DNA from: Cristatella mucedo | Taxonomy: Eukaryota; Bryozoa; Phylactolaemata; Cristatellidae | Direction: 5' to 3' | DNA length: 64,000 nt | Assembly: GCA_009760855.2 (NCBI GenBank) | Contig: WPIO01000006.1 | Span: 3,396,501-3,460,500, forward strand | In this document: positions 59,800 through 60,470 of the stretch, one piece after another | How the letters are laid out: each line of letters starts with the position of its first letter | Numbering within the stretch: position 1 is the first letter of the stretch | Translations under genes and position numbers: made by a program | Notes under the pieces: model-generated | Databases searched by the model: none | What the model saw: the letters and a program-made list of their open reading frames with translations, nothing else | Told to the model about the DNA's origin: nothing

Positions 59800-60470
59800 G
59801 GTGTGATCCAGCATGTGCGATCAGGCGATTGCAGCTGGTGCAAAACTCTGCAGCTAGGCTTGTCTGTCGTGAGCGTCGCAGTTGCCACGTTACTCCACTT
59901 CTCGCCGACCTGCACTGGCTACCAGTCAAGCAACGGATTGACTTCAAGGTTTTGTCGCTCACTTTTAGGTCCCTTCATTCTATGGCTCCAGCCTATCTCT
60001 CAGATATACTACCCCATCAGGCCAAGCATCATACCACCCGCTTTTCGGAATCCAACAGTCTAGAAATACCTCATACAAACCTTAAATCCTTTGGAGACCG
60101 TGCATTTAGTTCATATGCTCCCAAAGCCTGGAACTCCCTCCCGACCTGCGTCAGAACATCCCCTGACCTGACCACATTTAAAAGGAACCTAAAACACACC
60201 TATTTAGGACAGCATTTAGTGGGTCCCTGTGATTCGTGCTCCATGTGCTTATGCGTGCTGACACTGTGCATGCTGCCACTAACCACATTTGCATGCTGAC
60301 CCTGTGCATGTCACCCCTAACCATATTATTCATTTCGTTTGTTTTTCAAGCATGATTTTACTTACCATTCAATTGCATTTCACTTTACAGCAAATGTAAA
60401 GCGCCTAGAGAGAGATTAAGTTCTCTGAGGGCGCTTTATCAAGTGAATTATTATTATTATTATTATTACG
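59800..60470 (+). mobile_element. LINE family A 3' end, well preserved
   Basis: An open frame (59784-60299) reads [60 protein letters not shown] and [18 protein letters not shown], then the 3' untranslated part, the foldable tail at 60390-60445 and (ATT)n to 60470. It is 5' truncated and among the least damaged copies. Confidence 0.9.

Follow-up and report, generated by a model that had tools for sequence, protein, structure and literature searches.

The window, meaning the whole 64-kb stretch of DNA analysed here (46.8% G+C), carries histone and POLQ-like genes that point to an animal. Four core histone genes are arranged as two divergent pairs, one at 48877-49260 (-) and 49396-49809 (+) and the other at 54040-54429 (-) and 54584-55033 (+). 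They are H4, H3, H2B and H2A by their N-terminal sequences and match the Pfam Histone family, with H4 below the cut-off; sub-threshold matches to the histone 3' stem-loop lie near them at 48804, 49827, 53970 and 55062. Exon-like matches to a POLQ-like helicase/polymerase are spread over about 40 kb of the forward strand (5069-45735) and include DEAD (5069-5362), POLQ_helical (21765-22286) and DNA_pol_A (45466-45735) domains. At 5862-6007 the triplet CTG is repeated perfectly for 48.7 units.

The window also contains a LINE lineage, present as 5'-truncated copies, and a SINE family with a tRNA-like head, both of which end in the same 3' tail of about 62 nt (GCATATG...AGCGCC-hairpin-GGCGCT...CAAATGAATTAT). 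An earlier examination of the letters (the sequence-only reading) had proposed such a common, foldable tail for two elements that it called LINE A and SINE 1. The LINE lineage is represented by three forms, A1, A2 and an older B. The copies of the LINE, of the SINE and of the tail alone are as follows.

59808..60470, forward strand: LINE A1, 5'-truncated, with the C-terminal part of the RT ORF, 3' UTR, tail and (ATT)n (tblastn 88% over 163 aa; tail E 1.4e-23, a seed of the profile)
60388..60456, forward strand: tail of this A1 copy, predicted two-step stem-loop (MFE -24.4 kcal/mol, 0/200 shuffles as good; alignment)
43094..44119, reverse strand: LINE A1 with a 273-aa open C-terminal fragment, 3' UTR, tail and (ATT)n (ORF, tail profile, tblastn, fold)
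23371..23455, forward strand: solo LINE A1 tail with (ATT)n (profile, fold); LINE body not found upstream
2803..3728, reverse strand: LINE A2, diverged tail with extra bases past the stem (61-71% aa identity to A1; tail profile)
12258..12680, forward strand: older LINE B, tail GCTATGCAAATGTATTATTATT (tblastn, tail profile, alignment, DNA identity)
16420..16774, forward strand: older LINE B, 3' UTR and tail, classed by the stretch directly above the tail, without a tblastn match; UTR similarity weak (54-61%, forced alignment)
19989..20588, forward strand: older LINE B with tail (tblastn 48-51% aa; tail E 5e-10)
6230..6412, forward strand: older LINE B, 3' UTR fragment and tail, assigned to B by eye on the sequence above the tail (tail profile)
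9108..9275, forward strand: SINE, tRNA-like head and LINE tail (tail profile, fold)
14366..14520, forward strand: SINE whose head spans the full tRNA model in alignment (15.6 bits, under the 29-bit cut-off)
34445..34603, reverse strand: SINE with decayed hairpin, absent from the earlier list (tail profile, fold)
47902..48050, reverse strand: SINE (tRNA model 12.9 bits, below cut-off)
58170..58318, reverse strand: SINE nested in a copy of another family, LINE C (tail profile, fold)
62794..62950, reverse strand: SINE (tail profile, fold)
59282..59405, forward strand: SINE, absent from the earlier list (tail profile)
61233..61345, forward strand: SINE with an internal deletion across the first half of the hairpin (tail profile)
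60712..60778, forward strand: solo SINE-like tail (tail profile match)
42969..43057, reverse strand: solo diverged tail adjoining the (ATT)n of an A1 copy (profile E 4.5e-6)

The LINE copies begin at varying points and all end at the same tail, a pattern of variable 5' truncation with a constant 3' end, and the LINE terminus is an (ATT)n repeat. When the 273-aa A1 ORF at 43259-44080 (-) was used as a tblastn query, it matched 59808-60296 with 88% identity and 2978-3689 (-) with 61-71%, followed by weaker matches at 12258 (39-65%) and 19989 (48-51%); the B copies at 16.7k and 6.3k were unsupported by this search. DNA identity between the 3' parts of six copies was 92% for the two A1 copies, 74-80% for A2 and the B copy at 12k, and 54-69% for the B copies at 16k and 20k. 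No full-length LINE was found in the 64-kb window. The lineage, known here from C-terminal fragments, is probably L2/CR1-like; since the A1 ORF had no match in Pfam or PDB, this placement depends on C-terminal motifs. Relatives of the ORF were sought in viral and genome contig collections, where none of the 3 and 36 pattern matches was confirmed by tblastn.

The SINE has a simple architecture, in which the tail follows directly after the T-arm, without a body. Two of the eight heads were run against the Rfam tRNA model, and both aligned over its full length with the sub-threshold scores given above, while ARAGORN called no tRNA. A- and B-box-like motifs were seen in the head by eye. The loop CTTACGA of the SINE at 14371, likewise read by eye and without a tool call, would give a TAC (Val-like) anticodon.

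A profile built from nine seed tails found 18 matches with E<=1e-5 in the window, the nine seeds included. The nine unseeded matches have E-values from 2e-13 to 1e-5 and lie at 60702-60792, 16680-16774, 20490-20588, 6331-6412, 59333-59421 and 61292-61352 on the forward strand and at 34439-34528, 2803-2902 and 42969-43057 on the reverse; a weak partial tail at 8831 reached E 0.011. Sorted by their upstream sequence, the 18 tails comprise three A1 (two with a LINE body and one solo), one A2, four B, eight SINE (one with the internal deletion) and two solo. All eight places where the sequence-only reading had put the tail carry it (SINE copies at 9113, 14371, 47917, 58168 and 62806; LINE copies at 23380, 43070 and 59800). 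The copy given as 59800 has its tail at 60388-60470, whereas the supposed LINE copy at 23380 turned out to be a solo tail, with similarity beginning at about 23371 and no LINE body. The exact motif TGAATTAT, which had been read in both families, is present in one of the three A1 copies (60388) and three of the five SINE copies then listed, and absent from the rest. The older B copies of the lineage (12598, 16691, 20500 and 6342) had been missed.

The shared tail is homologous between SINE and LINE. The SINE consensus tail (made from six of the eight SINE-type rows, leaving out 59344 and 60712) scored 73 and 61 against the A1 tails at 60k and 43k, 65 against the B tail at 12k and 40-43 against the remaining three B copies, and for each of these six none of 300 shuffles scored as high (largest shuffle score 20-25). 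The A2 tail scored only 21, which 7 of 300 shuffles equalled, and is by itself not beyond chance. Although hairpins and (ATT)n are common, and the A2 tail taken alone would fit a coincidental hairpin with an A+T-rich ending and no homology, such a coincidence is refuted for A1 and B by these shuffles and by the unseeded profile matches, and has practically no standing as an account of the tail. Above the tail the two elements part company: by eye, the 40 nt above GCATATG showed no LINE-SINE similarity in the five LINE and five SINE copies compared. Directly above this boundary, two of the four B copies read CTTCCTTTACAG followed by CATATG, which resembles a splice acceptor placed where the shared tail begins; the other two B copies differ, and the A1 copy at 60388 reads CACTTTACAG followed by CAAATG (sites 12580-12600, 16673-16693, 6324-6344 and 60371-60391). 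The solo A1 tail at 23371 starts near this splice-acceptor-like point.

LINE C, the other LINE in the window (24.6k, 46.6k, 57.4k and 6.4k), is a separate family that matches the A1 ORF at 34-45% aa identity (tblastn) and has a different 3' end; one fragment has a weak RVT_1 match (6.4e-5, below the cut-off). Several copies lie within the window, and some share GCGCTATACAAA near their 3' ends, so that LINE C might be considered as the source of the SINE tail. However, the local scores of three C copies (17-20) fall in the shuffle range, being equalled or exceeded by 75, 10 and 10 of 300 shuffles, and the predicted fold differs in the two C tails that were folded. LINE C was rejected as tail donor on these grounds, and its candidacy is exceedingly remote. 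Two structural oddities were seen among these elements: at 4205-4539, two LINE C-like 3' ends (identified as C by eye) are inverted as 125-nt arms, 85% complementary and 85 nt apart, and at 57902-58111 a 70-nt unit is repeated three times in tandem (93% matches) within a LINE C copy.

The shared sequence by itself gives no direction, and the LINE lineage might in principle have acquired its tail from the SINE. Against this, the tail is present in A1, A2 and B, between which DNA identity is 54-80% (six copies compared); being carried by each of these lineages, it is expected to be older than their divergence. The literature, as represented by part of one survey, also has SINE 3' ends originating from LINEs (PMC3747384), and the reverse transfer is highly improbable.

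In the copies that are better preserved, the predicted fold of the tail is a stem-loop with two steps. In the A1 copy at 60388, the outer stem pairs AAAGCGCC with GGCGCTTT, the inner stem pairs AGAGA with TCTCT, and the predicted loop is UUAAGU in the conserved register; the same loop is found in the A1 and SINE consensuses. Thirteen tails were folded against 200 shuffles each. None of the shuffles was as good for any of the three A1 tails, and 3, 0 and 1 were for the SINE tails at 9204, 58195 and 62820. The tails at 12606, 20508, 14450 and 47928 were marginal (12, 11, 8 and 12 of 200), and those at 2831, 16699 and 34467 were at chance (54, 88 and 123 of 200). Some copies also depart in sequence from the stem-loop described by the sequence-only reading: the SINE at 14371 has lost one pair of the outer stem (G14/A48), and those at 9113 and 47917 each have a single wobble pair in it. 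RNAalifold returned eight pairs in the same two helices.

An alignment of 16 tails, omitting 42969-43057 and 61292-61352 (part of the tail missing or garbled) and the partial tail at 8831, was used to examine the 11 named pairs. Standard pairs occupy 88.6% of the 176 stem cells, versus 33-57% when the partners are slid. Covariation, which had been suggested as a check, lends weak support: both-sided changes affect three pairs in 4 of the 176 cells, and 6 of 500 shuffles reach three pairs. The A2 change from C15-G47 to U-A may represent two independent CpG transitions, as may T15 and T46 in B, whereas the A2 change from G28-C37 to A-U is not CpG-type. Covariation is weak evidence here because the copies are mostly dead and some of the double changes are CpG-type. 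The placement of differences is stronger evidence for the fold. All 28 stem/loop columns are identical between the SINE and A1 consensuses, whose 11 differences over 62 columns lie elsewhere in the tail (P=0.0006, a somewhat flattering value since the structure was defined from the same sequences). Between SINE and B, three of nine differences fall inside the stem/loop (P=0.33, not significant), and two of these three are CpG-type. A basal helix of seven further pairs (GCATATG-CAAATG) was also considered, with 83.9% of 112 cells paired versus 15-47% when slid, but on none of five measures did it exceed the shuffles, of which 51 to 203 in 500 reached its value, and it is a suggestion only.

Which form of the LINE gave the SINE its tail is a finer question. 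At columns 6, 50, 59 and 63 the SINE agrees with all four B copies against A1 (at column 59, T59 is absent), and at column 41 it agrees with two of the four. At the CpG sites, columns 15 and 46, it agrees with A1 against B, and at columns 11, 20 and 23 it is unlike both. Identity to the SINE after the stem favours B (14/15, versus 11/16 for A1), in the stem part it favours A1 (35/40, versus 32/40 for B, or 34/40 CpG-corrected), and for the complete tail the values are almost equal (B 52/61, or 54/61 CpG-corrected; A1 51/62). The sequence-only reading had named a better-matching LINE as evidence against its pairing; what was found is a mild case of this, in the older B form of the same lineage. 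With moderate confidence, we take the tail donor to be an older, B-like form of the lineage, from which A1 diverged later.

The sequence-only reading had instead proposed LINE A, seen at 60385, as the partner; on that account the differences would have arisen in the SINE. The absence of differences between the SINE and A1 in the stem/loop speaks for A1 itself, as do the stem-part identities and the comparison copy by copy, in which A1 at 60388 equals or exceeds B at 12598 in seven of eight rows (three being ties) and gives the highest copy-to-copy identity (51/62, with the SINE tail at 62869). However, all four B copies side with the SINE at the four columns given above, and the SINE copies look older than the A1 copies, with mean pairwise tail identities of 0.76 and 0.94, respectively (0.69 for the decayed B copies). 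The proposal stands as regards the lineage, and A1 as the exact partner is unlikely.

The SINE and the lineage of A1, A2 and B very probably form a stringent-type LINE/SINE pair, with a shared tail hairpin, in an animal genome. The LINE reverse transcriptase would bind the folded RNA tail and thereby start target-primed reverse transcription. The SINE, in which a tRNA-like head (presumably a pol III promoter) is followed immediately by the terminal ~62 nt of the LINE, would be transcribed by pol III, and its RNA would be bound and copied in trans by the LINE enzyme.

Such an arrangement is reportedly found in the eel pair UnaL2 and UnaSINE1, said to have been described by Kajikawa and Okada in 2002, a study cited in PMC4176376. 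By description, that pair is similar in having a 3' stem-loop tail common to SINE and LINE, followed by short repeats. The 3' repeat of UnaL2 is TGTAA according to excerpts of a survey (PMC3747384), compared with ATT in the LINE described here. The same excerpts of the survey, by Ohshima, count 58 SINEs whose 3' ends are common to a partner LINE, the property shared by the present pair (PMC3747384).

The zebrafish L2-clade LINEs ZfL2-1 and ZfL2-2 have an upper and lower stem and a loop, again by description, as predicted here (PMC4176376). Deletion of their tail stem-loop abolishes retrotransposition, while changes to the loop, which matters most for specificity, abolish or strongly lower it, as stated in parts of that report (PMC4176376). 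Their tail is bound by a mapped protein region between endonuclease and RT, a part missing from the truncated LINE copies here (PMC4176376, in part). In hagfish, excerpts of another study describe SINEs with CR1-type tails, as in the pair SINE2-4_EBu and CR1-3_EBu, where a tRNA-type SINE has a tail like the 3' UTR of a CR1-type LINE (PMC7245038). As here, related tails are common to several hagfish SINEs over time, but some of their relatives carry Meta or Deu bodies, while the SINE here has none (PMC7245038, in part). A search of literature text for four tail motifs found none, although sequences in figures or supplements would escape it.

The arrangement is known in kind and ordinary in principle, and the pair described here is a further example of it, perhaps not yet described. 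It adds to the known pairs one in which younger and older LINE copies occur together within a single window, and could serve to examine whether parasitism by a SINE leads a LINE to alter its tail. The principle of shared tails is established; the point worth pursuing is whether the A1 tail changed after parasitism. In a tail arms race, the older tail would first have been copied by the SINE and then altered in the young A1, shedding the parasite; the changes concerned would be the longer outer stem through T50, the inserted T59 and G63. If this were true, the SINE copies would be fossils of an older recognition code. Both the race and this role for the three changes are improbable. Against them, A1 and the SINE have the same predicted loop, and in zebrafish it is the loop that acts as the specificity element.

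Target duplications were sought around 12 elements (eight SINE, three A1 and one B), none of which had one above chance (smallest P 0.24). The SINE at 58170-58318, nested in LINE C, showed a 3-nt overlap relative to one of four C references, all with both flanks matched; with the three others, the left-flank alignment stops short. A different juxtaposition is seen at 59282-59808, where a SINE adjoins an old, frame-broken LINE fragment (59410-59761) and the younger A1 copy begins directly behind it, at about 59808.
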